Shown: positions 30,375 to 51,115 of the stretch, one piece after another | How the letters are laid out: each line of letters opens with the position of its first letter | Position numbering within the stretch: the first letter of the stretch is position 1 | Assembly: GCF_000717185.1 (NCBI RefSeq) | Contig: NZ_JNYE01000043.1 | Location: 1-54,607, forward strand | Direction of reading: 5' to 3' | From: Kitasatospora phosalacinea | GTDB taxonomy: Bacteria > Actinomycetota > Actinomycetes > Streptomycetales > Streptomycetaceae | Length of the DNA: 54,607 nt | Notes under the pieces: generated by a model | The model's input: the letters and a program-made list of their open reading frames with translations, nothing else | Databases searched by the model: none | What the model was told of the DNA's origin: nothing | Position numbers and translations under genes: made by a program

Positions 30375-31475
30375 ATGGAGCTCGAACTGCGCGGCGGCGT
30401 CCGCGCCGCCCCCGTGGCCGGCCGCACCCCCGCCGAACGCCAGGCCCTGCGCTGGGCCCCCGACCCGCGCGAACGCACCGCCGACCCCGCCCACATCGCC
30501 CGCACCGCAAGGGAGTTGGAAGAGGACGGGCTCGACTCCGCGCTCGTCGTCCAGTCCTCCTCCTGGCCCGACCCGTGGGCCGTCGCCGGCTGGGCCCTGG
30601 CCGCCACCACCCGGCTGCGGATCGCCGCCGCCCACCGCATCGGCACCACCTCGCCCACCGCCGCCGCCCGCACCCTCGCCACCCTCGACCGGCTCTCCGG
30701 CGGACGCATCAGCGCCCACCTGGTCATCGGCTCCAGCGACGCCGACGTCGCCCGCGACGGCGACACCCTCCCCAAGGCCGAGCGCTACCGCCGCGCCGAC
30801 GAGTACCTCTCCCTGCTCACCCGCTACCTCGCCGCCGAGGACGACCTCGACCACCACGGCGAGTACTACACCGTCCGCGCCGCCCGCAGCGGCCTGCGCC
30901 CCCACCCTGGCAGCGAACTGCTCTCCTTCGGCGGCTCCTCCCCGGCCGGCGTCGACCTCGCCGCCCGCTACGCCCAGGTCTACGCCGTCCCGCCCCGCCC
31001 GCTCCCCGACACCCGGCTGCGGATCGCCGCCGCCCGCGCCGCCGCCACCCGGCACGGCCGCACCCTGCGGATCTGGCGGCACGTCACCGTCGTCCTCGCC
31101 GACACCGACACCGCCGCCCAGCAGCACCTGCGCCGCCTGCGCCGCGACGCCCTGCGCCTGGCCACCGGCCCCGACGCCGCCCGCTACCACGACGCCGTCG
31201 CCCTCGACCGCGACCGCGAACGCGGCACCGCCGACACCGCTGCCGTCGACCCCGACACCGCCCCCACCCAGGTCGCCGCCTACATCCGCCGCTCCCTCGC
31301 GGGCGCCTACACCGGCTCGCCCGCCACCGTCGCCGCCCGGATCAACCTGCTCCGCTCCGCGGGCGTCGACATCGTCCAACTCGACCTCCCGGTCGAGACC
31401 GACCACGACCGCGCCCTGCGCCGCGCCCTGGTCGCCCAACTCCGCGCCCCCGCCCCGCTGCGCCGCGCCTGGTAG
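30375..31475 (+). CDS. FMN-dependent LLM monooxygenase (SsuD-like)
   Basis: 366 residues from ATG 30375, with GGAG eight bases upstream. LLM barrel with the alkanesulfonate-monooxygenase-like pattern: DGLDSALVVQSSSWPDPWAVAGWALAATTRLRIAAAHRIGTTSPTAAARTLATLDRLSGGRISAHLVIGSS, AERYRRADEYLSLLTRYL, GEYYTVRAARSGLRP and LLSFGGSSPAGVDLAARYAQVYAVPP. SsuD-type enzymes use FMNH2 from a separate reductase to cleave C-S or oxidise C-N and C=O substrates. No NADPH:FMN reductase is adjacent, so it would rely on another one, perhaps the 19.3-kb reductase. Last gene of the importer/oxidase block. Confidence 0.85.
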   Translation: MELELRGGVRAAPVAGRTPAERQALRWAPDPRERTADPAHIARTARELEEDGLDSALVVQSSSWPDPWAVAGWALAATTRLRIAAAHRIGTTSPTAAARTLATLDRLSGGRISAHLVIGSSDADVARDGDTLPKAERYRRADEYLSLLTRYLAAEDDLDHHGEYYTVRAARSGLRPHPGSELLSFGGSSPAGVDLAARYAQVYAVPPRPLPDTRLRIAAARAAATRHGRTLRIWRHVTVVLADTDTAAQQHLRRLRRDALRLATGPDAARYHDAVALDRDRERGTADTAAVDPDTAPTQVAAYIRRSLAGAYTGSPATVAARINLLRSAGVDIVQLDLPVETDHDRALRRALVAQLRAPAPLRRAW

Positions 31476-31588
31476 CCCGCCGGCCCGCACCACCAACTGC
31501 CAACTGCTGTCCGGTTCTTCGCCCTGGACGCCTGGGTGTCGATCGCATCGGCCAACTGGCCTTCCTCCAGACCCAGTTCGGTCATCCC

Positions 31589-31888
31589 TTACTCGGAAGC
31601 CCGGTGGGACGGTCGGGTAGACGGCGCGGCGGGCCAGTCCTCCGCCAACGAGGTGTGCCCCAGTGGGAACCACGGGCTCTCCAGCGCCCCGACGCCGTCG
31701 AGCGCCCACCCCACCGTCGGGGCGAACGACGCAGGCAGTAGCCGTTCCCGGGTCTCGATCAGCGAGACGTGCGCACCGGTGTACCCGATCAGGGCCCCCA
31801 GCTCGTCCTGGCCAAGATGGGTCCGGAGTGCCCGGAGCTGCCGGTCGAAGGTTGCGGTCGGACTTGACGAAGGGTCAAGTTCATTGAC
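31589..31888 (-). pseudogene. Truncated Scr1-type HTH regulator lacking a start codon
   Basis: A minus-strand frame of 99 codons, following a TGA at 31889-31891 and ending at TAA (complement of 31589-31591), reads NELDPSSSPTATFDRQLRAL, then RTHLGQDELGALIGYTGAHV, SLIETRERLLP and SFAPTVGWALDGVGALE. That is the N-terminal HTH of Scr1/DUF5753-type regulators. It contains no ATG, GTG or TTG at the expected start: the codon in that place is GTC. The roughly 180-residue DUF5753 ligand part is missing. The rest of 31476-31588 shows no gene. Confidence 0.6.
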
Positions 31889-31991
31889 TCACAATCGGGC
31901 CGGTTTCCAGTTCCGGAAACTGAGGGACCTTGACCGCACGGCCGCCGGCTCGGAAGCATCGAGTGCGGCATCCGTCGACGAGGGGGCAACC

Positions 31992-32183
31992 GTGGAACTG
32001 GAAACGTTGTCGAGTTCGTGCGACGAGGGCGAGTGCCCCACGCTCTACCGTACGGACCGGGGCACGCTGGCCGTGCAGGGCGAGCGGATCACCGACCACG
32101 GTCGTGAAATTCCCGAGCACGAGACCGTGGTGGAGATCCCGGTGGAGTTGATCCGGAAGGCGGTCCGCGATGGGCTTCTCTGA
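31992..32183 (+). CDS. Small conserved-looking protein of the DUF6879/Scr1 module
   Basis: 63 residues from GTG 31992, with GAGGGG five to six bases upstream. Acidic protein: VELETLSSSCDEGECPTLYR, then TDRGTLAVQGERI and EIPVELIRKAVRDGLL. A C-x4-C pair is visible. No enzyme fold is recognisable. It overlaps the DUF6879 gene by 14 bases in a different frame, indicating coupling, and this gene order (small acidic protein, DUF6879, HTH) recurs in streptomycetes; function unknown. Confidence 0.65.
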   Translation: MELETLSSSCDEGECPTLYRTDRGTLAVQGERITDHGREIPEHETVVEIPVELIRKAVRDGLL

Positions 32184-32694
32184 GAACCTCGGCAGCATGT
32201 TCTCCGAGTTCAGGCGTGAAGCGTTCAGGCTGGAAAGCCTGGACGACTACAGCCGGTCCGGTGGCGTGGAGGCATACCACGCGTTCCTGGCGGGCGAGGA
32301 GCAGCCCGAGGAGTACCGGAACTCCTCCTGGGTGACCACTGTCGGAGAAGCCGTGCGGTCCGGCAGGAGGATGTACCGGGTGCACGTGCTGTCGCGGCCG
32401 CTGACCGACTACCTGCGGTTCGAGCTGTCATGGGGGTACCGCCGCAACATGACGGCCGGGGAGGAGTTCTTCATCCTCGACGTCACCGAACGGGAGAATC
32501 CGCTCCAGGGCGTTCCCGACTTCTGGCTCTTCGACGACGAGGCCGTCGCGGTCATGAACTACGACGACTCCGGCGGGTACCTGGGTGCCGATTTTCACGG
32601 GGGAGACCGCGTCCCGGAATTCGCGGCGCACCGGGACGCGGCACTCGCGCACGCTGTGCCGTTCGCCGATTGGTGGGCCGAGTACGGCGAGTGA
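32170..32694 (+). CDS. DUF6879-family protein
   Basis: 174 residues from ATG 32170. Pattern FRREAFRLESLDDYSRSGGVEAYHAFLAGE, RMYRVHVLSRPLTDYLRFELSWGYRRNMTAGEEFFILDV, DFWLFDDEAVAVMNYDDSGGYLGAD and the final WWAEY is that of DUF6879 proteins, which nearly always neighbour a Scr1-type HTH gene in actinobacteria. Soluble and acidic; no catalytic motif is evident. A role as a partner or sensor for the regulator is inferred from gene order. Ends with a GTGA overlap with the regulator gene. Confidence 0.8.
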   Translation: MGFSENLGSMFSEFRREAFRLESLDDYSRSGGVEAYHAFLAGEEQPEEYRNSSWVTTVGEAVRSGRRMYRVHVLSRPLTDYLRFELSWGYRRNMTAGEEFFILDVTERENPLQGVPDFWLFDDEAVAVMNYDDSGGYLGADFHGGDRVPEFAAHRDAALAHAVPFADWWAEYGE

Positions 32695-33545
32695 ACAGGT
32701 CGGAGCTGGGACCGGCGCTACGGGCACTGCGAGAGGCCTCCGGGAAGGAGGCCAGGACGGTGGCCCGCAGCGCCGTCATGTCGACGAGCAAGCTCAGCAA
32801 GATCGAGAACGGGCGGGCGGCGGTGTCCGTCGTCGACGCGGACCGCATCCTCACCGCGATCGGCGTGTCGGAGGCGGTGAAGGCCGAGTACATGGCCGCT
32901 GCCCGCGCGGAGGCGACCGAGGCGACGGCCTGGCGGCTGTACCGGAGGCTGGGGTACCACCGCAAGCAGCAGCAGATCAAGGCGATGGACGACACCACGA
33001 CGCTGCTGCGGATCTTCCAGACGTCCCTGATCCCCGGGCTCCTGCAGACCCCCGAGTTCGCGCGGGCGGTGTTCGCGAGGAAGGAGATCGGGGAGGAGCA
33101 GTTGTCCCGTGCGGTCGGCGGCCGCCTGGCCAGGCAGGCGGTTCTCTACGACCCGGCCAAGGAACTGCAGTTCGTGATCCTGGAATCCGTTCTCCGGTGG
33201 GGCCTGGTGCCGCCCGCGGTGATGGTCGAACAACTGGACAGGATCGTTTCCGTTTCCAGGCTTTCCGGGGTCGACGTGCGAGTGATGCCGCTCGCCGGTT
33301 TCCACGCGGACGTGCCGGGCCACTCGTTCGCGGTTCGGGACGACAGAACGGTGACCGTGGAAACCGTTCACGCGGAACTGGTGGTGACCGATCCCAGGGA
33401 CGTGGACCTCTACGTTCGGAAGTTCGAGAGGTTCTCATCCGCTGCTCTGGCCGGGGACGACATGCGCAGCCTGCTGGAAGGCATTCGGGACGAGTTCTTG
33501 CGGAAACAGGAAACCGGTCTTGAACGCCCTCCCGGCTGCCCCTAG
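32691..33545 (+). CDS. Scr1-type (HTH-DUF5753) transcriptional regulator
   Basis: 284 residues from GTG 32691 (GTGA overlap). N-terminal HTH (GPALRALREASGKEARTVARSAVMSTSKLSKIENGRAAVSVVDADRIL) is followed by the DUF5753 domain: LRIFQTSLIPGLLQTPEFARAVF, RLARQAVLYDPAKELQFVILESVLRWGL, VMVEQLDRIVSVSRLSGVDVRVMPL, VTVETVHAELVVTDPRDVDLYVRKFERFSSAAL. This matches regulators that in some Streptomyces stimulate antibiotic production. Codon use is somewhat less G/C-biased than the flanks, hinting at horizontal acquisition. It lies 57 bases upstream of the peptide/methyltransferase pair and may control it. Confidence 0.9.
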   Translation: MNRSELGPALRALREASGKEARTVARSAVMSTSKLSKIENGRAAVSVVDADRILTAIGVSEAVKAEYMAAARAEATEATAWRLYRRLGYHRKQQQIKAMDDTTTLLRIFQTSLIPGLLQTPEFARAVFARKEIGEEQLSRAVGGRLARQAVLYDPAKELQFVILESVLRWGLVPPAVMVEQLDRIVSVSRLSGVDVRVMPLAGFHADVPGHSFAVRDDRTVTVETVHAELVVTDPRDVDLYVRKFERFSSAALAGDDMRSLLEGIRDEFLRKQETGLERPPGCP

Positions 33546-33602
33546 CGTGATTTCCGGTGGCCGTCCGGCCGCCGTTTCCGCTGATGCAGGGAGGTCGCTC
33601 TC

Positions 33603-33722
33603 ATGCTCGACGCCGATGGCGGGCACGGGGGAAGTCCCGCGCCGATCCAACCGCCGCCGCCTCCGGCTCCGCCGTCACCCGACGGCAGCGCGCCGCCCGG
33701 GGGCGGGGAGCACCGCAAGTGA
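33603..33722 (+). CDS. 39-residue Pro/Gly-rich peptide; candidate RiPP precursor
   Basis: ATG 33603 follows a strong AGGGAGG (33588-33594) by eight bases; TGA 33720-33722 overlaps the methyltransferase GTG as GTGA. The peptide starts MLDADGGHGGSPAPIQ, then a Pro-rich stretch, SPDGSAPPGGG and EHRK. It has two Asp-Gly steps (D5-G6 and D27-G28), the sequence context most prone to aspartimide formation and a preferred target of isoaspartyl methyltransferases. A peptide translationally coupled to a dedicated PIMT-like enzyme matches the imiditide arrangement. It could also be a simple leader ORF; processing is unproven. Confidence 0.55.
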   Translation: MLDADGGHGGSPAPIQPPPPPAPPSPDGSAPPGGGEHRK

Positions 33723-34906
33723 CCGACGGTCTCCGGGCGGAGGGGGTGGGCCGTCCCGGCTTCGGGTCGGGGCGGTCCCTGCTCTCCACCGGCAGTCTGT
33801 CCCCGGATTGGGCGGGCACGTTCGGTGCGGTGCCGCGTTCGCTGTTCGCGCCGCCGCGGGTCTGGGCGTACGACATGGCCACCGGCCGCAGCGTGCTGGT
33901 GGACCGGGACGAGGACCCGGTCGCCTGGTGGGCCGCGACGGAGGCGGACGTCCCGTTGGTGACGCAGTGGGACGACGGCGGGCACGGCGGGGTGGAGCCG
34001 GGGCGGGTGCCGACCAGCAGTCTCAGCATGCCGAGCGTCGTCGCGTCGATGCTCCGCGACCTCGACGTGCGGCCGGGCCAGCGGGTGCTCGACGTGGGGA
34101 CCGGGTGCGGTTGGAACGCCGGGCTGCTGGCGCACCGGCTCGGGGCGGGACGGGTCGTCAGCGTCGAGTGCGACCGGGAGGTCGCGGCGCTGGCCGCCGC
34201 GCACCTGAAACGGGCGGGCCTGGAGGCGGAGTTGGTCGTCGGTGACGGCGGGGTCGGCCGGCCCGGCGGCAGCCCGTACGACCGGGTCGTCGTGACGTAC
34301 GGCGTCCGGGAGGTTTCGCGGGCGTGGATCGCGCAGTCCCGGCCGGGCGGTGTCGTACTGGTGCCCTGGGGGACGGACTTCAGCCCGTTGGACGCCGTGG
34401 CCAGGCTGGAGGTGCGGCCCGACGGGACGGCGGAAGGACGGTTCACCGGGCTGGTGGAGTTCATGAAGTCGCGGGATCAGCGGCTCGCGTTCCCCGAACA
34501 CGCCGCGTACGTACCGGAGTTCCCGGACGGTGCGGACACCCGGCACCGGACGGTGCTCGCCGCGGACGCCCTGGGCGGCCGCTGGGGCGTGCAGCGCTTC
34601 GTCGTGGGGCTGGCGGTGCCGGACGTGACGCACCTGGTGCACCGGCAGGAGGACGGGACGACCGTGGTGTGGTGCTACGGGCTGTCGGACCGGTCCTGGG
34701 CGGCGGTGGCGTGGCGCGCGGGGCAGCAGGGGGCGACGGTGTACCAGGCCGGGCCCCGGCGGCTCTGGCAGTTGGTGGAGCGGGCCCTCGCCTGGTGGGA
34801 CGGCCGGGGCTGCCCGGAGCTGACCCGGTTCGGTCTCGCGGTCGGGCCGGACGGCACCGTGCCGTGGCTGGACGGACCGGCGTGCCCCGTCCCGCAGTAC
34901 CGGTGA
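33719..34906 (+). CDS. Protein-L-isoaspartate O-methyltransferase-like enzyme (RiPP-associated type)
   Basis: 395 residues from GTG 33719, chosen for its overlap with the peptide stop; an ATG at 33584 would add an Arg-rich, shadow-like extension. Residues about 20-110 (SPDWAGTFGAVPRSLFAPPRVWAYD, PLVTQWDDGGHGGVEPGRVPTSSLSMPSVVASMLRDL) and the SAM site QRVLDVGTGCGWNAGLLAHRLG, VVSVECDREV match the PIMT fold. SSLSMPS matches the conserved TSSxSxPS-type loop. The C-terminal 200 residues are the extra domain found in PIMT homologs working with ATP-grasp, lanthipeptide or imiditide precursors rather than in repair enzymes. It would methylate Asp in its partner peptide, leading to aspartimide; no ATP-grasp or lanthionine synthetase gene is nearby. 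Confidence 0.8.
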   Translation: MTDGLRAEGVGRPGFGSGRSLLSTGSLSPDWAGTFGAVPRSLFAPPRVWAYDMATGRSVLVDRDEDPVAWWAATEADVPLVTQWDDGGHGGVEPGRVPTSSLSMPSVVASMLRDLDVRPGQRVLDVGTGCGWNAGLLAHRLGAGRVVSVECDREVAALAAAHLKRAGLEAELVVGDGGVGRPGGSPYDRVVVTYGVREVSRAWIAQSRPGGVVLVPWGTDFSPLDAVARLEVRPDGTAEGRFTGLVEFMKSRDQRLAFPEHAAYVPEFPDGADTRHRTVLAADALGGRWGVQRFVVGLAVPDVTHLVHRQEDGTTVVWCYGLSDRSWAAVAWRAGQQGATVYQAGPRRLWQLVERALAWWDGRGCPELTRFGLAVGPDGTVPWLDGPACPVPQYR

Positions 34907-35021
34907 TCCGGCAACCCGGGGCCGGGGCCGGGGGAGGTGCGGGTGCGGGTGCGGGTGCTGGCGGCGGTCAGCGGTTCACCGTCGCCATCGATCTGTGCGG
35001 CACAGTGCGGCAACGCGGCCT

Positions 35022-35123
35022 GCGGTGCGCCGAGTTCGGGTCCTCCCGCTGGCGGCCGCGGCCGGGGCGCACGCCCTGGGCGAGACGGACCGGGGGACGG
35101 TCAAGCTCGTCCTCGCCCCCTGA
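35022..35123 (+). pseudogene. C-terminal remnant of a zinc-type quinone oxidoreductase
   Basis: The frame ending at TGA 35121-35123 reads AVRRVRVLPLAAAAGAHALG followed by ETDRGTVKLVLAP. This is the standard end of MDR/quinone oxidoreductases (RVLPL..A..AH...E.G...GK.VL.P), with the Gly-Lys turned to Val-Lys. Nothing upstream in 34907-35021 continues the Rossmann domain, so only about the last 33 residues survive. The rest of 34907-35160 holds short G/C repeats and no gene. Confidence 0.45.
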
Positions 35124-35160
35124 CCCGCGCCGTGCGCCGCCGACCGCGCGGCAGGCGGGG

Positions 35161-36132
35161 TCACGCCACCCCGCGCAGCTTGTCGGGGTTGGAGACCGCG
35201 TGGATGCCGCGGACCAGGTCGCCCTCCGGCGCCAGGTCCAGGACGAGGACCGCGAACGGGCGGCCGAAGGCGGAGAAGGCGGCGGCGGGGGCGCCGTTGA
35301 CGCTGCGCCAGGTCACCTCCAGGCCGCGGTCGCCGGACTTCCCGGCCAGCGCGGCGAGCAGGCGGGCGACCTTGGTGCGGCCGGTGAGCGGGCGCCGTCC
35401 GCCGGGGGCCTTGCCGCCGCCGTCGCCGATCAGGGTGACGTCCGGGGCGAGCAGTTCCAGCAGGGCCTTCAGGTCGCCGCCGAGGGCCGCGGCGAGGAAG
35501 CGCTCGGTGACCTGCCGCCGCACGGCGGGCTCGGCCTCGTAGCGGGGACGGCGCTCCTGGACGTGGGCGCGGGCCCGTTTGACCAGCTGCCGCACCGCCG
35601 CCGGGCTGCGGCCCAGCACCGCGGCGACCTCGGCCCCGCTGTACCCGAACACCTCGTGCAGCACGAACGCGGTGCGCTCCAGCGGCGACAGCGTCTCCAG
35701 CACCACCAGCAGCGCCAGCGACACCGACTCGGCCCGCTCGGCGGCCAGCGCGACGTCCCCCGTGCCGCCGTCCGTCCCGCCGTCCGCGCCCAGCAGCGGG
35801 CCCACCAGCGGCTCCGGCAGCCACGGGCCGACGTACGTCTCGCGCCGCCGGACGGCCGCGGCCTGCTGGGCGAGGGCCCGGTTGACCGCGATCCGCACCA
35901 GGTACGCCTTGGGGTGCTCGATCCCGGGGGCGGCCGGGTCGGTCGCGCGGGCGGTCCAGGCCAGCCAGGTGTCCTGCAGGACGTCCTCGGTGTCGGCGAC
36001 GCTGCCGAGCAGGTTGTAGACGAGGGAGAACAGCAGCTCCCGGTGCTCCGCGTACGCCCGGGTGGCCCGTTCCCCCGCCGCCTCCGCCTCCGCCGCTCCC
36101 GCGACCCCGGCCGCCCCCGTCGCCCGTTCCAT
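35161..36132 (-). CDS. ECF41-type sigma factor (SigJ family)
   Basis: 323 residues from ATG (complement of 36130-36132), with GGGAG six bases upstream. Sigma region 2 (HRELLFSLVYNLLGSVADTEDVLQDTWLAW) and region 4 (LSPLERTAFVLHEVFGYSGAEVAAVLGRSPAAVRQLVKRARAHV) are joined by the ECF41 linker motif WLPEP (104-108). A SnoaL-like C-terminal domain ends in the diagnostic NPDKL (315-319). In this group the fused C-terminal domain, rather than an anti-sigma factor, modulates activity. The usual ECF41 target, a carboxymuconolactone decarboxylase or oxidoreductase gene, is not adjacent. It is divergent from the NTPase/WD40 gene, with a CRP-like site in between. Confidence 0.92.
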   Translation of the reverse strand: MERATGAAGVAGAAEAEAAGERATRAYAEHRELLFSLVYNLLGSVADTEDVLQDTWLAWTARATDPAAPGIEHPKAYLVRIAVNRALAQQAAAVRRRETYVGPWLPEPLVGPLLGADGGTDGGTGDVALAAERAESVSLALLVVLETLSPLERTAFVLHEVFGYSGAEVAAVLGRSPAAVRQLVKRARAHVQERRPRYEAEPAVRRQVTERFLAAALGGDLKALLELLAPDVTLIGDGGGKAPGGRRPLTGRTKVARLLAALAGKSGDRGLEVTWRSVNGAPAAAFSAFGRPFAVLVLDLAPEGDLVRGIHAVSNPDKLRGVA

Positions 36133-36227: not shown

Positions 36228-36396
36228 CCCGCGCCCGGGCCCGACGGGCCGGACCCGAACAGTCGTCCGTGCACCTCAAGTAGGCTGACCGCGGCCGGAA
36301 ATGACGGTGCCACGGCGAGCGGGGAGCGCCCGGCCCCTTCCGGGCGCCCGCCGAGGGGACCGGCCGACGGGGACGGACACGAAGGACAGGCGACAA

Positions 36397-38739
36397 GTGG
36401 ACAGCGACAACCGCGCCGGCGTTCGACTCGCGGACCGGGCGGAGGGCGGGCCGACCGCCCCCGAGGCAACACCCGGCGCGGTGGGGAACGGGGCACCCGG
36501 TGGACGGCCCGGGTGCTGGCAGTACCTGCTGGACGACGGCCTCGACCCCGCCGGACGGATCCCCGTGCACGCCGTGCGCGCCAGCGTCCCGCCCGCCGAC
36601 CGCACCGGCACCCCCGGCGCCCGCCGCCCCAACCCGCGCCACGGCCGCCCGCTGCCCGCCCCCGCGCCCGCCGACGCCCCGGCCCCCGGCCTGCCGCCGC
36701 TCGGCGCCGGACGCCGCCCCGCCGGGCGCGCCCTGCTCTCCTGGCTGGAGGACACCCGCGCGCCCCGGCTGTGCCGGATCACCGGCTCCTCCGGCAGCGG
36801 CCGCACCCACCTGCTGACCTGGCTCGCCGCCGCCTGCCCGCCCGACCACCCGCGCCCCGGCCGCCGCGTCCACGCGCTGCTGGACGCCGAGGGCCTGACG
36901 GTCCGCTCCGCCACCGCCCGGCTCGCCGACCTGCTCGGCCTCAGCGCGGGCGAACCCGCCGAACTCCTCGAAGCGCTGCAGGACGGCACCCCCCGCACCG
37001 TCGTGGTCACCGACCTCGACCGGGCCGGCGGCCCCCGGCTGCCCGACCTGCCCGAACGCCTCGCCCGCGAGCTCCTCGTCCCGCTGCTGTCCGTCCCCTG
37101 GCTGCTGCTGGTCGTCGAGGCCGCCGACGGCCCCGCCGCCGAGGCGCTCACCGCCGCCGCCCCGACCGGCGCCGTCCTCGACCTCGACCAGCCGCAGTGG
37201 ACCGACCCCGCGAAGTACGCCGCCTGGTGCGCGGGGCTGCCCGGCCACCCCGTCGACCCGGCCGCCACCCACCCCAGCCCGGGCCTGGCCCAGCTCGCCG
37301 CCCGCACCCCCGGCGCCGCCCCCGACCCGGCCCGGCCGCCCGCCGAACGCGCCGCCGCGCTCGCCGGGGCCTGGTGGGCGGCCGTCCCGCCCGCCGAACG
37401 CGCCGCCCTCGCCGCCCTGGCCGGGGCCGAGGGCCCGATCAGCACCGCCCTGTGGGCCACCCTGCCCGGCGCCGACGCCCGCTCCGTCGCGGCCGCCGCC
37501 GACCTGCTGCCCCCGCCCCCGATGGCCGACCGCTGGCGGCTGCGCCCCGAGCAGCTCGCCGACCTGGTCACCGCCGACAGCCCGCCGGTCGACCACGCCG
37601 CCACGATGTGGGAGGTGGCGGGCGGCATACCCGTGCGCGCCGACGGCGGCCCCGACCTCGCCGCCAGCGACCCCGAGCGCCTCGCCCTGCTGCTCCGGCA
37701 CGCCTCCGCGGGCGACCCCGCCAGCCCGATGCTCGACGAGGTCGACCTGCTGCTGCACGCCGAACCCGCCGCCGTCACCGCCGCGTTCCAGTACGCCGAG
37801 GACAGCGGACGGCCGGCCACCCCGCTCGCCGAGGCCTGGCGCCGCGCCGCCCCCGACCGGGCCGCCACCGCCCGCCCCGCCGACCGGGCCGCCGTCCTGC
37901 ACGCCCACCTCACCGGCCGCCACGACGCCGCTGCCGCACACTGCGCCGAACTCGCCCGGCAGGCCGACACCCGCTGGCGCGCCGTCTGGCAGCACACCCC
38001 CGCCGACGGCCCCTGCGCCGCCACCCCGGGCCTCGGCCCGTCCGCCGGGCACCTGCTGCTCGCCGACGGCGACGGCCTGCACCTGGCCGACCCCGCCACC
38101 GGCCGCCTCCACGACGACCGGCCCGAGCCGCTGCACGCACCCCACCCGCGCGCCCTGACCGCCACCCCGTTCGGCGGCGCCCTGCTGCTCGACGCCTCGG
38201 GCACGCTGCGCTCGCTCACCGTGCGCGGCGCCGAGGGCGTCCCGGACGGCGCGCTGGCCGCCCTGGACGCCTGCACCGCCGTCGCCGCGCACGAGGACGT
38301 CATGGTGTTCGGCCGCCCCGACGGCCTCACCACCTACAGCGAGGTCTCCACCGGCACCGCCCACCGGCCCGAGCACCCCCTGCACGAGGGCCCGGTCACC
38401 GCCCTCGACGTGGCTCCCGCCGACGGCGGCGTCCTGGTCGCCAGCGGCGGCGAGGACGGCCGGGTGTGGACCTGGATGCCCGGCCGCCCGCCGCTGCCCG
38501 CCCCCGTCGACCAGCGCCCCTGGCCGGTCACCGCCGTCGCCCTCGGCAGCACCCCCGCCGGACTGCTGCTCGCCGCGGCCTGGTCCGACGGCCTGCTGCG
38601 GCTGCGCCGCTGGGGCGAGCGCCACCACGGCGCCGACATCCGGCTCGGCGCGGCCGTCCGCACCCTCTCGGTCACCCCCGACGGCCTGGTGGTCGTCGCG
38701 CTGCCCGGGTCGGTGCTCGCCCTCACCCTGGTCGGCTGA
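36397..38739 (+). CDS. Large NTPase-like protein with WD40-like C-terminus
   Basis: 780 residues from GTG 36397 (AAGGA upstream; ATG 36301 is an alternative). A Pro-rich N-terminus precedes a STAND/AAA-like P-loop segment LCRITGSSGSGRTHLLTWLAAACP, in which the Walker A lysine is arginine (G130 to T137, R136), and a Walker B-like TVVVTDLDRAGG. An Ala/Pro-rich helical region (about residues 280-520) follows. The last 250 residues form repeated beta strands (GHLLLADGDGLHLADPATGR, PVTALDVAPADGGVLVASGGEDGRVWTWMPG, AGLLLAAAWSDGLLRLRRW), that is, a WD40/beta-propeller. Actinobacterial homologs combine P-loop and propeller as signalling or scaffold proteins; nucleotide hydrolysis is doubtful here. 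The stop is within a tandem repeat. Confidence 0.75.
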   Translation: MDSDNRAGVRLADRAEGGPTAPEATPGAVGNGAPGGRPGCWQYLLDDGLDPAGRIPVHAVRASVPPADRTGTPGARRPNPRHGRPLPAPAPADAPAPGLPPLGAGRRPAGRALLSWLEDTRAPRLCRITGSSGSGRTHLLTWLAAACPPDHPRPGRRVHALLDAEGLTVRSATARLADLLGLSAGEPAELLEALQDGTPRTVVVTDLDRAGGPRLPDLPERLARELLVPLLSVPWLLLVVEAADGPAAEALTAAAPTGAVLDLDQPQWTDPAKYAAWCAGLPGHPVDPAATHPSPGLAQLAARTPGAAPDPARPPAERAAALAGAWWAAVPPAERAALAALAGAEGPISTALWATLPGADARSVAAAADLLPPPPMADRWRLRPEQLADLVTADSPPVDHAATMWEVAGGIPVRADGGPDLAASDPERLALLLRHASAGDPASPMLDEVDLLLHAEPAAVTAAFQYAEDSGRPATPLAEAWRRAAPDRAATARPADRAAVLHAHLTGRHDAAAAHCAELARQADTRWRAVWQHTPADGPCAATPGLGPSAGHLLLADGDGLHLADPATGRLHDDRPEPLHAPHPRALTATPFGGALLLDASGTLRSLTVRGAEGVPDGALAALDACTAVAAHEDVMVFGRPDGLTTYSEVSTGTAHRPEHPLHEGPVTALDVAPADGGVLVASGGEDGRVWTWMPGRPPLPAPVDQRPWPVTAVALGSTPAGLLLAAAWSDGLLRLRRWGERHHGADIRLGAAVRTLSVTPDGLVVVALPGSVLALTLVG

Positions 38740-41093: not shown

Positions 41094-42428
41094 CTACCCG
41101 CCCAGTCGGGCGAACCGGCCCTCCAGGCGCGACAGTTGGAGGGCCGTCGCCGGGGAGCGCAGCGCGTCCTGCCGCTCCCGGAAGCTCGCGTACGCCCGCC
41201 GGGCCTGGTGGATGTTGCCCGCGTCCAGCTCCAGGTGCGCGAGCTGCAACAGGGACACCCCGATCGTCCGGTGCTCGCCCGGGGGCCGGGCCCGCAGCGA
41301 GGCCCGCAGGTACGACAGCGACAACTCGGTGGCCCGCAGCGAGCGGTGCACCTGCGCGGCCTGGTACAGCAGGGCGGGCTCCGGGTACCGGTGCGGGCCG
41401 CCCTCCGCGGCCGCCCGCCCCGCCCAGTGCTGCGCGCCCTCCAGGTGCTTGAGCGCCTGCGCGGACTGCCGCAGCCGGGCCGCCGCCACCGCCTGCTGGG
41501 CCAGCACGAAGGCCCGCACGCCCAGGGCCGCGTCCGGCGGCAGGTGCTCGGCCGCCGCGTCCGCCAGCCGGGCCGCGTACGCCTGGTGCCCGAGGGCCCC
41601 GGCCTGGGTGCTCTGGTCGCGCAGTGCCATCGCCTGGGCCGGTCCGTCCTGTGCCTCGGCCGCGAGCTGGTACGCCAGCCGGTAGTGCCGCTGGGCCTCG
41701 CCGTGCCGGTTGTCGTCGGTGTACGTCCGCCCGACCAGGCGGACCAACTGGGAGGCGGCGACCAGCAGTTCGGCGTGCCGCGGGCCCCCGGCGGGGGACT
41801 TCGCCCAGGGCAGTACCTGGTCGCGCAGGTAGCCCAGCAGCAGGCCGCGGGCGATCGCCCCGCCGTACCCGTCGTAGTGCCGGGCGCCGAACGCCGTCAT
41901 CTCCCGCACCGCCTCCACCTGCCGGGCCCCGACCCGCTCCGGGCCGGAGCGGCGGACGGACGGCACCAGCGGCGGACGGGGCGCGGCGTTCCCGGCGGAG
42001 GGTCCGGGCCCCGCCGCCGGGCGCGGGGCGGGCACCAGCCGGATCTGGAACAGCGGAGGCTGAAACGTTTCGTCCTGCGGCTCGCCGGAATTCGGCCAGG
42101 AATGCAGTCGACGCAGCCCCGTCAGGGCGTCCGCCGACTCCGGGCCGGACTCCTCCGCGAGCGCCGGATCGGCCGACTGCAGGCCGAGCTCGCCCCGCGA
42201 GACCGGGCGGCCCAGCCGCCGGGCGAACGCCTCCTCCAGCAACTGCGGCCCGGGCGGCCGCGGCTGGGTGCCGGACAGCCAGTGCGCCACCGTCGTCCGG
42301 TCGTAGCCCACGCTGAAGCCGCTCTCCCGGGCCACCTTCTGCAACGCGGCCGCCAGCGCCGGGCCGTTCCACCCGGCCTCCGCCATGCAACCGCGCAATG
42401 CGGCATTCGGACCACGGGTGTGCGGCAT
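41094..42428 (-). CDS. NsdA-like HTH/TPR regulator
   Basis: 444 residues from ATG (complement of 42426-42428), fixed by AAGGAG seven bases upstream. N-terminal HTH-like region (NAALRGCMAEAGWNGPALAAALQKVARESGFSVGYDRTTVAHWLSGTQPRPPGPQLLEEAFARRLG), a variable linker, then TPR-like helices from about residue 190 to the end (HAELLVAASQLVRLVGRTYTDDNRHGEAQRHYRLAYQLAAEA, LLYQAAQVHRSLRATELSLSYLRASL, LLQLAHLELDAGNIHQARRAYASF). This matches the NsdA/NsdB-type regulators of Streptomyces, known as negative controllers of differentiation and antibiotic production. It lies near an SsgA-like sporulation gene on the same strand. Confidence 0.82.
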   Translation of the reverse strand: MPHTRGPNAALRGCMAEAGWNGPALAAALQKVARESGFSVGYDRTTVAHWLSGTQPRPPGPQLLEEAFARRLGRPVSRGELGLQSADPALAEESGPESADALTGLRRLHSWPNSGEPQDETFQPPLFQIRLVPAPRPAAGPGPSAGNAAPRPPLVPSVRRSGPERVGARQVEAVREMTAFGARHYDGYGGAIARGLLLGYLRDQVLPWAKSPAGGPRHAELLVAASQLVRLVGRTYTDDNRHGEAQRHYRLAYQLAAEAQDGPAQAMALRDQSTQAGALGHQAYAARLADAAAEHLPPDAALGVRAFVLAQQAVAAARLRQSAQALKHLEGAQHWAGRAAAEGGPHRYPEPALLYQAAQVHRSLRATELSLSYLRASLRARPPGEHRTIGVSLLQLAHLELDAGNIHQARRAYASFRERQDALRSPATALQLSRLEGRFARLGG

Positions 42429-42608
42429 CGACAACTCCTTGTGCGGACCACCTAAGGGGTTGGCCCCAGAATAACGGGCGGCGCCGACGGCGAATACCGA
42501 TTTCCGCCGAGCGTCGACCGTTCGACACCGGGGTATCGGAAATGGCCGAATGTGATGACCCGGCGGGAATACGATCATCTTGTCCGCTCTTATTCAATTC
42601 TGCCGGCG

Positions 42609-43625: not shown

Positions 43626-44792
43626 TCAGGCGCCGGAGACCGTCCGGCCGCCCTCCGTCCCGTTCGCGCCCTCCGTCCCGTTCCCGCCCCCGTTTCCGAT
43701 CCCGTTCCCGGTCAGGGGCGCGGCCAGGGTCGCGGCCAGCGCCCGGGCCTGGTCGAAGGCCCGGACCGGGTTCGGCGCCGCGGACCACGGGTGGGCGCCG
43801 CACCACGGTCCGATCAGCCGGAACTGCTCCAGCGCCAGCGCGGGTTGCCGGGACAGCAGGGCGAAGTGCGCCAGCAGGTGCCGCAGCAGCGGCACCTGGT
43901 CGTTGGCGGCGGGGGTCCCGTCCAGCGCCGCCGCGACCCTGGGCAGCAGCTCCCGGTACCGGCGGCCGCCGGGCAGCCCGCCCGGGCCGTGCCGCAGCTC
44001 CAGTTCGGTGAGCGCCTGCAGGTACAGCCCGGGCAGCGGCGACCCGGCCGGGGCCCCGTGCACCGCGCGCACCGCGAAGCGCAGCATCAGGGCGTCACTG
44101 CCGTGCCACTTGGCGCACCAGTACTGCATCGCCTGCCAGTGCCCCCCGACGTGGTGCGGCGCCCGGGCCACCACCTCGCCCCACAGCTCCCGGAACCTCC
44201 GCCGCGGCAGCCGCATCCCGCGTGCCGCGGCGACCATCACCACCCAGGGGCCGGGGTCGCGCCGGTCCGACTCGGCGGCGCGGCACGCCAGTTCGTGCGC
44301 CACGGCCAGCTGCGCCCGGAACGCGGCCGCCCGCTCCGGCGCGACCTGCGCGGGCAAGCCGCCGCCGCGCGCCTCCCAGGCCCGCTGCACCACCAGCCGG
44401 GCCCGGACCGTCGCGGCGGCGCACCGGTCCGTCCCCGCCTCCTCCCAGGCGGTCAGCCACTCGTCGCGCTCGGCCGCGATCCGGGTCAGGAAGTCCAGCC
44501 GGGACCAGCGCTCGTCCCAGTCCTCGCCCGCCGCCGCCACGTGCGCCTCGGCGGCCCGCCAGCCGCCCGCCAGGCAGGAGTCCGCCAGCGCCTCCAGCTC
44601 CTTGCGCCGCAGCAGCCGCATCGGCGGCCCGCCCCGCCCCGGGTCCAACTCCGCCGAGGGCACCAGCCCGTACGCCCCCGGGTCGAACCCGGCCACCTCC
44701 GCCGCCCCGGGCACCGGCCGCCCGCCGGGGGTCCGCCGCCGCGTCAACAGCACGAACAACGCGGCCAGGCCGAACAGCAGAACGGGGGTCAT
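43626..44792 (-). CDS. Membrane-anchored TPR-like protein of unknown function
   Basis: 388 residues from ATG (complement of 44790-44792). One N-terminal membrane span (MTPVLLFGLAALFVLLTRRR), then a helical solenoid (LADSCLAGGWRAAEAHVAAAGEDWDERWSRLDFLTRIAAERDEWLTAWEEAG, WVVMVAAARGMRLPRRRFRELWGEVVARAPHHVGGHWQAMQYWCAKWHGS, LRHLLAHFALLSRQPALALEQFRLIGPW). The C-terminal tail is Gly/Asn-rich (GNGIGNGGGNGTEGANGTEGG). It recalls DUF4034-like actinobacterial proteins but the family is not certain. Downstream (43540-43590) lies a duplicated G/C-rich 16-mer. Confidence 0.6.
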   Translation of the reverse strand: MTPVLLFGLAALFVLLTRRRTPGGRPVPGAAEVAGFDPGAYGLVPSAELDPGRGGPPMRLLRRKELEALADSCLAGGWRAAEAHVAAAGEDWDERWSRLDFLTRIAAERDEWLTAWEEAGTDRCAAATVRARLVVQRAWEARGGGLPAQVAPERAAAFRAQLAVAHELACRAAESDRRDPGPWVVMVAAARGMRLPRRRFRELWGEVVARAPHHVGGHWQAMQYWCAKWHGSDALMLRFAVRAVHGAPAGSPLPGLYLQALTELELRHGPGGLPGGRRYRELLPRVAAALDGTPAANDQVPLLRHLLAHFALLSRQPALALEQFRLIGPWCGAHPWSAAPNPVRAFDQARALAATLAAPLTGNGIGNGGGNGTEGANGTEGGRTVSGA

Positions 44793-46983: not shown

Positions 46984-48219
46984 GTGACCGACACCGAAGA
47001 CGCCGCCTGGTCCTACTCCCCGCCCGACACCCTGCTCGGCGCGCTCGAACGCGGCCGCGGCCTGGGCTGGGCGTACGCCCTGTCCGATCGCCCGGCCGGG
47101 GCCGAGGCGGTGCTCGACTGCCTGCACCGGGACACCCGCTGGGACCGGAGCGTCGACCAGCGGGCCGACTACCAGGCCTACCTGGTACGGGAGTTGGGGC
47201 TGCCGATCGAACCGCTGCTGGCGCAGCTCGACAACCCCGACGAGAACGGCTCCGAGTGGGCCCGGGAGACGCTGGCCCGACTCGCCCTGCTGGGTTCGGC
47301 ACCGGCCCGGGAGGCGCTGCGCCGCTACGTGCGGGAGGGCGAGTGGTGGCAGAAGGCGCTGTCCGTCCTGGCGGACAACTGGCCGACGGACTGGTGGGAG
47401 GACCTGGGGCCGGACGCGGTGCGCCGCCTCGGCGGGGAGCGGCCGGAACTCTGGGGGTTCGAACCCTGGCTGACCTGGCGGGAGTTGCTGCCCGTGCGGG
47501 AGCCCGCGCCGCGGGCCCGGCGCCCGGTGCGGAGCACGCCCCGCACCGACCGGCTGCTCGCCGTGCTGACGGACCCGGAATCCTCTTCCAGGGAGCGCGG
47601 CGAAGCCCTGCGGACCCTGGCCGAGCGCCCCACCGTTCCGGTCGAACTCCTAGCCCTGGTACCTGACTTGTCGACCGATGGGGGTGACGGCTCCGGCGGG
47701 CGGGCGCTGGGCGGCGTGCACCGTGCGGTGCGGCGGCTCGGTCCGCTCGCGGTCGGACCGGCCCGGGAGTGGGCCGACGACGACCGCCACTGGCTGCAGT
47801 GGCTGGGCGTGCAGGTGCTCGCCGAGCACGGCGGCACCGGCGACGTCCCGCGACTGGTGGCCGAGTTGGCGAGCCAGTGGGAGGAGCGCGCGTGGTGCGG
47901 GCCGAAGCTCGTCTCCGACGGCCTGGCCCGGCTCGGCCCCGCCGCCGCGGAGGCCGGGCCGCTGCTGCGCCGGTTCTGGCAGCTCACCCCGCACAGCTAC
48001 GAACGCCCGTCCTACCTGCGGGCGTTGCACGCGATCGACCCGGACGCGGCGGCGCCGCTGCTGAGCGAGTCGCTCTGGGACTGCGAGCCCGACGCCCGGC
48101 TGTACGCGGTGCGGCACGTCCCCGTGGGTGGGGAACTGGAGTTCCGGCTGGCCGAGTTGAGGGACAGCCCGGTGGAGGACGACGAGCTGCGGGAGGCTGC
48201 GGCCGGGCGGTTGGGCTGA
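46984..48219 (+). CDS. HEAT-repeat-like protein of unknown function
   Basis: 411 residues from GTG 46984. All-helical repeated pattern: TLLGALERGRGLGWAYALSD, RELGLPIEPLLAQLDNPDENGSEWARETLARLALLGSAPAREALRRYVREG, DRLLAVLTDPESSSRERGEALRTLAER, DVPRLVAELASQWEERAWCGPKLVSDGLARLGPAAAEAGPLL, YLRALHAIDPDAAAPLLSESLWDCEPDARLYAVRHV. This resembles HEAT/armadillo-type scaffolds; streptomycetes carry many, often in pairs with toxin- or phage-defence-like genes, but nothing specific is near. The final GRLG-stop lies within a 20-bp tandem repeat. Confidence 0.65.
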   Translation: MTDTEDAAWSYSPPDTLLGALERGRGLGWAYALSDRPAGAEAVLDCLHRDTRWDRSVDQRADYQAYLVRELGLPIEPLLAQLDNPDENGSEWARETLARLALLGSAPAREALRRYVREGEWWQKALSVLADNWPTDWWEDLGPDAVRRLGGERPELWGFEPWLTWRELLPVREPAPRARRPVRSTPRTDRLLAVLTDPESSSRERGEALRTLAERPTVPVELLALVPDLSTDGGDGSGGRALGGVHRAVRRLGPLAVGPAREWADDDRHWLQWLGVQVLAEHGGTGDVPRLVAELASQWEERAWCGPKLVSDGLARLGPAAAEAGPLLRRFWQLTPHSYERPSYLRALHAIDPDAAAPLLSESLWDCEPDARLYAVRHVPVGGELEFRLAELRDSPVEDDELREAAAGRLG

Positions 48220-48325: not shown

Positions 48326-50998
48326 TCAGAACTGGGTGCTGATGGTGACGTCGGAGAAGTCGGTGACCGCGTACAGGCTCAGGTAGCGGTAGCCGGCGGT
48401 GGGGGTGGTGACGGTGATGCTCTGGGTGGTGCCCGGGTTGGTGGAGGAGGCGGTGAAGGCGTTCGGGGAGGCCCAGGTGGTGTCGTTGTAGTACAGGTAC
48501 GCGGTGCCGGTGCCGCCGCTCGCGGTGACCTTCAGGGTGGTGGTTCCGGCTGGCAGGTAGACGTACAGGTAGTCGGTGCTGCCCGCGGTGCGGGCGCGGC
48601 CGGTGCGGCGGCAGTTCTGGCCCATCGCGTCGGTGCGCTGGTCGGTGCAGAGCGGCAGGACGGGGGCGCCGCCGTCGACGGTGGTGGTGACCGAGGCCGG
48701 GGTGGCGGTGGTGCGGCCGTTGGCGTCGGTGACGGTCAGGGCGACGGTGTAGGTGCCCGCCTTGGCGTAGGTGTGCGCGGGGTTGCGCTCGTCGGAGGAG
48801 CTGCCGTCGCCGAAGGTCCAGTGCCAACCGGTGATCTGCGCCGGGGAGTTGGTGACGACGGAGCGGTCGGTGAGGGTGACGGTGGCGCCGTTGACGGACT
48901 GGTCGAACAGCGCGGTCGGGCCGGTGGCGAAGCAGGCGCCGCTCGCGCACGCGCTCAGCCAGGCGTCGAAGTCGGCGTCGTAGGAGGTGCCGAGGCCGTT
49001 GTAGACCGCGTAGCCGCCCTGGTAGTCGCCGGTGCGGAAGTGGCCGAGCATGCCGTGCACGTCCGCCGGGTGCTTCTCGAACATGTAGCGGACGGCCAGG
49101 TAGCCCCACGGGTAGACCCGGGTGGAGTCCGAATTGCCGTACGTGTTCTGGAAGATCGTCGACAGCTTGTAGGTGTGCTTGGCCGCCTCGGCCATCGCCT
49201 GGGTGTCGGTGACGCCGCGGTAGGCGTACGACTGGTACTCGGCGACGCCCTCGATCCACCAGATGTCCGGGACGGAGGTCTCGGCGGCGAAGTCGCCCTT
49301 CATGTCGTAGACGTTGTCGAGGTAGTGGGTGTACTCGTGGTTGAGGTTCCACACGTTGCCCGCGAAGTCGTCGTTCCACGACTTCTGGTACATCACGCAC
49401 ACCGGCTGGTTGTTCGGGTCGGTGACGTCCATGACGGTCTGGCCGCCGTTGTCGGTCGAGTTGCCGTAGATCGCCCACGAGTAGGTCTGGTAGTCGGCGG
49501 CGCTGGCGAACACCGGCATGACGACCGTCTTGCCGTACTGGTTCGGCACCGGGCCGCTGTCCTTGACCAGGCCGTGGAAGAAGGCGTCCTCGCCGCGCAG
49601 GCTGTCGCAGACCGGCTGCAGCTGGGCCACCGTCAGGGCCTGGGCGCGCAGCGTCTTGTTGTCGCAGACCAGGACGTTGGGCAGGACGGCGTCGGCGAGC
49701 TTGTTCGGTAGGTCGCAGGTGCCGTAGTACGAGCACTGGCCGTGGTCGTAGGTGTTGGCGTTGAACGCCACGTGCACGTACAGCGGGCCGGTCGCGCCGA
49801 GGATCTGGGTGGTGTCCAGGATCTGCTTGACCAGCGGCTTGGCGGCGCTCTCCACGGCGGTGGACGTCCCGGCCATCCGGGCGAGGTCGTTGCCCGCGTT
49901 GACGTCCAGGAAGGCGTTCGAGGTGCCCAGCAGGTCGCGGTGGTCGAGCGCGAAGTTGCCGAGCGAGGTGACCAGGGAGGTGTCCGCGCCGATCGCGTTC
50001 ACGAAGTCGGTGTTCCAGTTGCCGCGCCACAGCGGGGCGAACAGCACCGAGTTGACCGCGTTGACCATCTTCGGCGTCGCGTTGTAGCTGTTGTCGTAGC
50101 CGTCCAGCACCTGCCGGTAGACCTTCAGGTACTCGGCCTGGACGTTGGCGCTGTCGGTCAGCACCAGCACGTCGTACAGCACGAGGCCGTTGGCGTCGGT
50201 GACGTCCTTCCAGCGGGTGCCCGCGAAGAAGGCGTCCAGGCCGGCCCGGGTGGCGCCGGTCAGGGTGGCGCCGTAGCCGCCGACCTGGGACGGGTAGTAG
50301 GACTGCACGTAGTACCCGGCCCGCAGGAACTGCACCAGTTGCAGGATGCCGGAGCTGTTGGTGCCGTCGTAGGCCGCCGCCAGGTCCTTGAAGGCGCCCG
50401 CGACGGTGAGCATGTTGGCCTGCTTGAAGATCGCGCCCGCGTCGGTGCCGGTCACGTTGTACAGGGTGTTGACGCAGGTGTTCGTCGAGGACTTGACGAA
50501 GTTCACCAGGTCCGTACCGGAGCGGCTGCCGAAGTCGGCGTACGTGCAGCTCGGCGCGGCAGCGGCAGCGGCAGCGGCGGAGACGGAGGCGGCGGAGACG
50601 GAGGCGGCGGCCTGGGTGCCGTGCGGGGCCTTCCCGGCGCCCTGTTCCGCCGGGCGCGGGGCGGTCTGGACGGCGGTGCCCTTCGGCTGCCCCAGCTGGA
50701 CCTGACCGAGCAGGGCGGGCGGCAGCGGCGCCGCCACCGGCGTCAGGCTCTCGGGGGCGGCGTCGACGATCGGGCCGAGCGGCTTGGGGACGGCCCCGCC
50801 GGGGGCGTTCGCGTCCTCGGCGGAGGCGGAGGCGGAGACCGGGGCGGCGGCCGGGGCGGAGAGCGCCGTACCGGCGGCCTTCGCGGACTGCCCGCCGGGG
50901 GCGGCCGCGGCGGGGGAGGCCGGCAGCAGGGTGGCCGCGACGGTGCAGCCGGCCAGCAGGCCGGCCGCCAGGGTGGGGAGGGGTATGCGCAGACGCAC
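48326..50998 (-). CDS. Secreted M9 microbial collagenase
   Basis: 890 residues from GTG (complement of 50996-50998), with AGGAGA six bases upstream. Signal peptide about residues 1-33 (LAAGLLAGCTVAATLLPASPAAAA), a Pro/Ala/Ser-rich propeptide to about 150, then the M9 activator and catalytic regions. The zinc motif H554-E-Y-T-H558 (WNLNHEYTHYLDN) and the third-ligand segment WWIEGVAEYQSY are intact. A PKD domain (SPAQITGWHWTFGDGSSSDERNPAHTYAKAGTYTVALTVTDANG) and a C-terminal prepeptidase/collagen-binding-like beta domain (YLYVYLPAGTTTLKVTASGGTGTAYLYYND) follow. It degrades collagen or gelatin outside the cell. A LysR gene is upstream on the same strand, and both upstream regions carry a shared 11-mer. 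Confidence 0.93.
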   Translation of the reverse strand: MRLRIPLPTLAAGLLAGCTVAATLLPASPAAAAPGGQSAKAAGTALSAPAAAPVSASASAEDANAPGGAVPKPLGPIVDAAPESLTPVAAPLPPALLGQVQLGQPKGTAVQTAPRPAEQGAGKAPHGTQAAASVSAASVSAAAAAAAAPSCTYADFGSRSGTDLVNFVKSSTNTCVNTLYNVTGTDAGAIFKQANMLTVAGAFKDLAAAYDGTNSSGILQLVQFLRAGYYVQSYYPSQVGGYGATLTGATRAGLDAFFAGTRWKDVTDANGLVLYDVLVLTDSANVQAEYLKVYRQVLDGYDNSYNATPKMVNAVNSVLFAPLWRGNWNTDFVNAIGADTSLVTSLGNFALDHRDLLGTSNAFLDVNAGNDLARMAGTSTAVESAAKPLVKQILDTTQILGATGPLYVHVAFNANTYDHGQCSYYGTCDLPNKLADAVLPNVLVCDNKTLRAQALTVAQLQPVCDSLRGEDAFFHGLVKDSGPVPNQYGKTVVMPVFASAADYQTYSWAIYGNSTDNGGQTVMDVTDPNNQPVCVMYQKSWNDDFAGNVWNLNHEYTHYLDNVYDMKGDFAAETSVPDIWWIEGVAEYQSYAYRGVTDTQAMAEAAKHTYKLSTIFQNTYGNSDSTRVYPWGYLAVRYMFEKHPADVHGMLGHFRTGDYQGGYAVYNGLGTSYDADFDAWLSACASGACFATGPTALFDQSVNGATVTLTDRSVVTNSPAQITGWHWTFGDGSSSDERNPAHTYAKAGTYTVALTVTDANGRTTATPASVTTTVDGGAPVLPLCTDQRTDAMGQNCRRTGRARTAGSTDYLYVYLPAGTTTLKVTASGGTGTAYLYYNDTTWASPNAFTASSTNPGTTQSITVTTPTAGYRYLSLYAVTDFSDVTISTQF

Positions 50999-51087
50999 TG
51001 CTTCTCCTGGGGGAGGGAGCTCACTGAGCACATCAGTTGGGGGAGGGTGACGCGGTGAGCATCCTGGCACCGGAAGCAGCGTCAGAA

Positions 51088-51115
51088 CAATGTCACAGGT
51101 CATATGACATTGCAT
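51088..51115 (-). promoter_or_regulatory. Inverted-repeat operator upstream of the collagenase gene
   Basis: CAATGTCA (51088-51095), 9-nt spacer with an internal TCATATGA, and TGACATTG (51105-51112): perfect 8-bp arms, about 90-117 bases before the start. On the minus strand it contains ATGCAATGTCA (51105-51115), repeated upstream of the LysR gene. Confidence 0.6.

Follow-up and report, generated by a model that had tools for sequence, protein, structure and literature searches.

At positions 33603–34906 of the analysed window (a stretch of 54,607 nt from Kitasatospora phosalacinea), an ORF of 39 codons overlaps the start of a gene for a methyltransferase homologue. Is this small ORF a gene, to which class of peptides would its product belong, which residue would be modified, and what part does the transcriptional regulator encoded just upstream play?

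The small ORF and the methyltransferase gene

The ATG of the small ORF is at 33603 and its stop codon at 33720–33722 (33603–33722, + strand). A ribosome-binding site, AGGGAGG, is read at 33588–33594 (+), 8 nt 5′ of the ATG, and the GTG of the methyltransferase ORF is found at 33719. Direct reading thus bears out what the initial annotation had described: a 39-residue ORF with a strong AGGGAGG, joined through GTGA (33719–33722, +) to a 395-residue methyltransferase homologue. By this arrangement of stop and start, the two genes are a translationally coupled pair. The 39-aa peptide contains 12 Pro, 8 Gly, 3 Asp and no Cys; with four acidic and two basic residues (counted by hand) it is slightly acidic.

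The pair was compared with loci from 394 genomes of the family, 147 of which hold a homologue at E ≤ 1e-60. The set was made of 60 loci (59 places from the top of the ranking plus one other), the window itself and 80 named loci, the latter collected in a contig search with an alignment as query (a single-protein query matched nothing); removal of duplicates reduced these 141 loci to 124 distinct ones. A separate precursor is present at the enzyme start in 112 of the 124 loci, while in one (L066) the precursor is fused to a regulator. No precursor was seen at 11 loci (L055, L059, L103, L106, L120, L135, L138, L152, L158, L160 and L172), with L120 situated at a contig edge. A looser screen of 60 further loci, partly picked for nearby regulators, found a precursor beside the enzyme gene in 50.

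By the tails of their precursors, 67 of the 124 loci are of HRK type, 36 of PPK type (‘PDGGPGVPNPPK’) and eight of PKG type; 13 are untyped, with a real precursor among them at L068. The window precursor belongs to the HRK subtype. The core sequence is conserved across genera, and in a tree built from 108 of the 124 enzymes the tail type changes only five times. A small CxxC...DCxVLxRRHP domain is fused N-terminally to the precursor at two loci of PPK type, L136 (S. monomycini) and L159 (S. rimosus). Elsewhere the same domain occurs as a separate small ORF upstream of several PPK-type precursors, and the only Pfam match of this ORF, RYYR-CCHC, is below threshold (E 0.12).

High-GC DNA commonly holds short Pro/Gly-rich ORFs, and a recognisable precursor is absent at 11 of the 124 related loci; one could therefore ask whether the small ORF arose by chance or is untranslated, with the methyltransferase acting on other proteins. 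We find this scarcely credible. In 112 of the 124 loci the ORF is conserved in frame, the distance between the site Asp and the stop codon being fixed, and its changes are biased to the third position: differences between the window and three congeners are distributed over the first, second and third codon positions as 1/3/7, 2/4/5 and 3/3/14. A chance ORF is ruled out by this conservation together with the third-position bias, and, as judged from the same two observations, the 39-aa ORF is genuinely a gene. Were the precursor region read in either of the other frames, most changes relative to the congeners would be nonsynonymous, which disfavours an upstream start of the methyltransferase at the in-frame GTG at 33557.

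The enzyme, a putative peptide L-aspartyl O-methyltransferase (PAMT; 33719–34906, +, 395 aa), matches PF01135 (PCMT) with E 3.1e-25. Its best NCBIfam model is TIGR04188 (graspetide methyltransferase), scoring 278.9 bits where the cut-off is 380. In the predicted structure (mean pLDDT 86) the best fold match is Thermotoga maritima PIMT, 1DL5, which has been described with a RiPP-type C-terminal extension. The extended C-terminal domain pointed out in the initial annotation is indeed present, and at 395 aa the protein exceeds the 300 aa required of type I pamtide enzymes. Residues W360-DGR-G364-C-P366 fit the motif WxxxGxP, with W360 and P366 invariant across 26 aligned enzymes. The closest named relatives are Kitasatospora proteins.

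The same genome encodes a second PAMT paralogue (G000:C11:58906-59994, L185) with 40% identity; a screen for a pamtide-like precursor upstream of it found none. A Gly/Asp-rich type of precursor (‘HGGGGSDEGGN...DG’) was observed at L176, L182, L187, L217, L223, L227, L229, L230 and L233, and the PAMTs beside it have 40–50% identity to the window PAMT.

The predicted site and the class of the peptide

Two Asp-Gly steps, at residues 5–6 and 27–28, had drawn attention to the peptide, and a search for homologous pairs in which these positions are conserved had been suggested. Both steps are present and homologous pairs exist, yet only the second step is conserved. The dipeptide at the site is Asp-Gly in 105 of 111 typed precursors, Asp-Ser in five and Gly-Gly in one. 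Among 66 HRK-type precursors, the site is preceded by Pro in all 66 and occupied by Asp in 65, the next residue is Gly in 61 and Ser in five, and exactly 12 residues follow the site in 59. An Asp-Gly within the first ten residues is seen in 23 precursors only. Conservation of the one and rarity of the other indicate that one Asp-Gly step, not two, is constrained. Asp5 was rejected as a target, as Asp5-Gly6 is not conserved, and is probably not modified; the predicted target in the window precursor is Asp27, within the codons for Asp27-Gly28 (33681–33686, +), a candidate methylation and aspartimide site.

The HRK-type motif can be written P-x-P-D-G-x(2)-P-x-G-x-G-x-H-R-K. Its last three positions are His in 61 of 65, Arg in 55 of 64 and Lys in 55 of 63 precursors. 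In the window, the codons for His37-Arg38-Lys39 (33711–33719, +) encode this basic C-terminus, which is likely to serve in recognition by the enzyme, considering its conservation and the report that replacement of C-terminal residues by Ala in the precursor SpaA abolished modification (PMC10787088, PMC13001092). At L045 (Wenjunlia-type locus; also L101) Gly-Gly occupies the site and the start of the precursor is weak, as would suit a substrate that has decayed next to an intact PAMT.

The published type I pamtides, termed imiditides, number 1,414 in a 2026 review (PMC13001092). Their precursors are of ∼45 aa with 17.3% Gly, 16.8% Pro and 10.2% Asp; they have acidic/basic ends and a conserved Asp with Pro or Gly close by, and are encoded in two-gene clusters with the PAMT as the sole modifying enzyme (PMC10787088). 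The window shows each type I feature that was checked: a two-gene cluster, a precursor of fitting size and composition, a conserved Asp and a basic C-terminus. On this ground the locus is assigned to the published class. The pair is very probably a type I pamtide (imiditide) locus, and the imiditide-like reading of the initial annotation gains support from the homologous peptide/PIMT pairs with one conserved Asp-Gly. The remark that the Pro-rich body departs from known precursors has to be withdrawn: with the mean Pro and Gly contents just given, the class is Gly/Pro/Asp-rich and such a body is not unusual.

Against the pamtide reading one may set the 11 of 124 loci without a precursor, the Gly that replaces the site Asp at L045, and the slight acidity of the window precursor as compared with type I peptides of strongly cationic character, for which PMC13001092 offers a membrane-active reading. 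The net charges of 110 precursors of the present set run from −9 to +3 around a median of −2, so the membrane-active reading does not fit these precursors.

Other classes were also considered. A Pfam scan of 28 window proteins (41 ORFs were called) matched no ATP-grasp or lanthionine-synthetase family, nor any other class-defining RiPP family, which agrees with the earlier proposal that the methyltransferase is the only class-defining enzyme. A graspetide was rejected on the lack of an ATP-grasp family among the scanned proteins and on the TIGR04188 score below cut-off, and a lanthipeptide on the lack of a lanthipeptide enzyme family among them. A type II pamtide (cysimiditide) was rejected on the lack of Cys: the two CxxCxGxG motifs that define this type are absent from the 39 residues, and without cysteines there is no zinc-ribbon motif. 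The earlier statement that no ATP-grasp, lanthionine synthetase or protease gene is nearby holds for the first two in the scanned proteins; a protease is encoded in the window, an M9 collagenase with PKD and PPC domains (48326–51115, −), ∼13 kb away. Four further ORFs of the window have no Pfam family: one of 812 aa (36301–38739, +) with strong codon bias and no family at E 0.001, and three of 388–494 aa (41094–42578, −; 43626–44792, −; 46984–48219, +).

If the window pair behaves as its tested relatives do, PAMT would bind the precursor via its basic His-Arg-Lys end and use SAM to methylate Asp27. Methanol would next be displaced by the Gly28 amide, giving an aspartimide that would hydrolyse in part to isoaspartate. 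The function of pamtides (imiditides) and of their aspartimide is described as largely unknown (PMC10787088, PMC13001092).

Regulatory genes upstream of the pair

The Scr1-type regulator had been placed 57 bases upstream, and the end of its ORF at 33545 relative to the ATG at 33603 confirms this. The gene (32691–33545, +) encodes a 284-aa XRE-DUF5753 transcriptional regulator (PF13560, HTH_31, and PF19054), for which a sequence search matched no solved structure, and it overlaps through GTGA with a gene for a 174-aa DUF6879 protein (32170–32694, +; PF21806). In a consensus scan of 31400–35200, of limited value in this group, no promoter- or terminator-like sites were found. Given the same strand, the GTGA overlap, the 57-base gap and the lack of a terminator-like site, the regulator and DUF6879 genes most likely belong to a single operon together with the precursor/PAMT pair and would control it.

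The regulator recurs. DUF5753 was counted with an HMM derived from sequences of these loci, 121 of the 124 loci having 2.6 kb of upstream sequence. A DUF5753 regulator is found within this distance in 62 of the 121 (28 codirectional and 34 divergent) and in 59 there is none. Eight genomes (∼68 Mb) contain 192 DUF5753 domains, from which ∼0.9 loci would be expected, an excess of ∼70-fold. When the set was joined with the 60 further loci, some of them chosen for nearby regulators, and duplicates were removed (181 loci), DUF5753 was found upstream in 91 of 177 flanks, compared with 8 of 171 downstream, a difference of ∼11-fold in this partly selected set. A RsbW-like ATPase stretch (assigned by eye) lies within 2.6 kb upstream in 20 of 177. 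On the tree of 108 enzymes the regulator's presence or absence switches at least 27 times, thus the link is labile.

Orientation and partner genes differ with the subtype: the regulator is for the most part codirectional in HRK-type loci and divergent in PPK-type ones. DUF6879 is directly upstream, and DUF397 is missing, in 21 of 23 HRK-type loci with a codirectional regulator, while DUF397 is directly downstream of the regulator in 23 of 24 PPK-type loci with a divergent one. From the side of DUF6879, 14 of 43 places in eight genomes (46 rows less three weak ones) are followed within 3.5 kb by a PAMT gene on the same strand. Tail type and regulator orientation are associated with Fisher p = 1.2e-10; this value is not used as independent evidence since the tree leaves one independent pair, the two traits being confounded by descent. 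At L174 and L175 the XRE-DUF5753 gene overlaps the PAMT start directly, no precursor being found between the two or near them; DUF6879 precedes the regulator at L174 and not at L175.

A regulator and a precursor end are joined in Actinacidiphila reveromycinica (L066, protein P0121). Here the XRE-DUF5753 frame (DUF5753 at residues 97–269) continues into ANAPWTPPEPSPDGQSPEGDGQHRK, the conserved C-terminal end of the precursor, then runs into an AAGTGA junction as in the window and the PAMT gene; no separate precursor was seen at this locus. The fusion was seen in a single protein of a single genome. With the fused tail as query, a protein search gave no second tailed regulator, the other hits being only P0122 and P0123, where the tail is absent. 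Regulators matching the fused one at E 1e-70 are held by 15 of 35 Actinacidiphila genomes, and at all six inspected places whose match reached far into the tail the tail is absent. A recent in-frame deletion could have created the fusion without selection.

To look for export genes near the pairs, 1057 ORFs taken from 61 loci (8 kb on each side where available) were called and clustered by crude methods (single linkage), the families being named by eye. Twelve families occur in at least four of the 61 loci: PAMT in 59, DUF5753 in 34, DUF6879 in 19 and others in at most 10. Families that look transporter-like occur in seven and five of the 61 loci at scattered positions, and no peptidase was recognised among the 12 families. 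We saw no widely conserved exporter or protease near the pairs.

How, then, should the regulator setting be understood? Since graspetide clusters also carry DUF397 and DUF5753 (PMC8939145, PMC13097080), the regulators seen here may be of the ordinary, cluster-controlling kind. This is the simpler view: the regulator would only control a conventional pamtide cluster, the product of which would leave the cell through housekeeping export systems and act externally. Such a role is in line with the pleiotropic control of antibiotic production by XRE/DUF397 pairs (PMC10364602). Sitting less easily with it are the lack of a widely conserved exporter or peptidase among the 12 families and a core that is conserved rather than diversified. 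We consider this account reasonably probable, and simple cluster regulation explains most of the regulator setting.

The second account makes the pamtide a regulatory peptide of its XRE-DUF5753 neighbour, with the PAMT-made aspartimide or isoaspartate altering the action of the peptide (or, in a fusion, of the regulator's own tail) on the regulator, an intracellular switch and not an exported product. The excess of DUF5753 upstream, the DUF6879 and DUF397 genes that accompany the two subtypes, the conservation of the core across genera and the low count of even the commonest transporter-like family all point this way, as do the fusion at L066 and locus L174, where DUF6879, regulator and PAMT occur with no precursor found. 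Against it stand the 59 loci with no DUF5753 within 2.6 kb, the confounding by descent, the confinement of the fusion to one genome with six far-matching relatives lacking the tail, and the presence of DUF397/DUF5753 in graspetide clusters. On balance we hold this account to be unlikely, and are similarly doubtful of its bolder form, in which many pamtides would be modifiable partner peptides of XRE-DUF5753 regulators, acting in trans or, in the Actinacidiphila fusion, in cis. A regulatory role for the pamtide is at most plausible.

Still, the recurrent regulator and one natural fusion raise a direct question: does modification by PAMT change the activity of the neighbouring XRE-DUF5753 regulator? 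The bolder form, if true, would mean that bacteria control genes through a covalent aspartimide switch that hydrolyses by itself. In the literature covered, which included portions of PMC10787088, PMC13001092, PMC8939145, PMC13097080 and PMC10364602, a link of pamtides to DUF5753 or DUF6879 was not found stated, and the terms ‘regulator’, ‘helix-turn’ and ‘transcription’ have 0 occurrences in the portions covered of PMC10787088 and PMC13001092.

Relation to known systems

With the XRE-DUF397 pairs (Scr1/Scr2) the window shares the XRE-DUF5753 regulator; in contrast to these pairs, DUF397 is not next to the window regulator, which is preceded by the DUF6879 gene and followed by the precursor. 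Group 13 graspetides (graspimiditides) likewise have a PAMT of the TIGR04188-like family, and DUF397/DUF5753 may co-occur with them, whereas an ATP-grasp gene was not found beside the window PAMT. Type II pamtides (cysimiditides) also consist of a PAMT and a precursor only and differ from the window in the cysteines that its precursor lacks.

The likeness is closest to the type I pamtides SpaA/SpaM of Streptomyces sparsogenes, the case tested in vitro, where +14 and −18 Da species were obtained (PMC10787088), and NmaA/NmaM of Nonomuraea maritima. A S. sparsogenes pair in our set (L144), which may or may not be SpaA/SpaM, is of the other, PPK-tailed subtype. The window precursor differs from these known cases by its ...HRK end and slightly acidic character, and has in common with SpaA/SpaM and NmaA/NmaM the pairing of precursor and PAMT genes, a short Gly/Pro/Asp-rich precursor with one conserved Asp and a basic C-terminus, and an enzyme extension with WxxxGxP.
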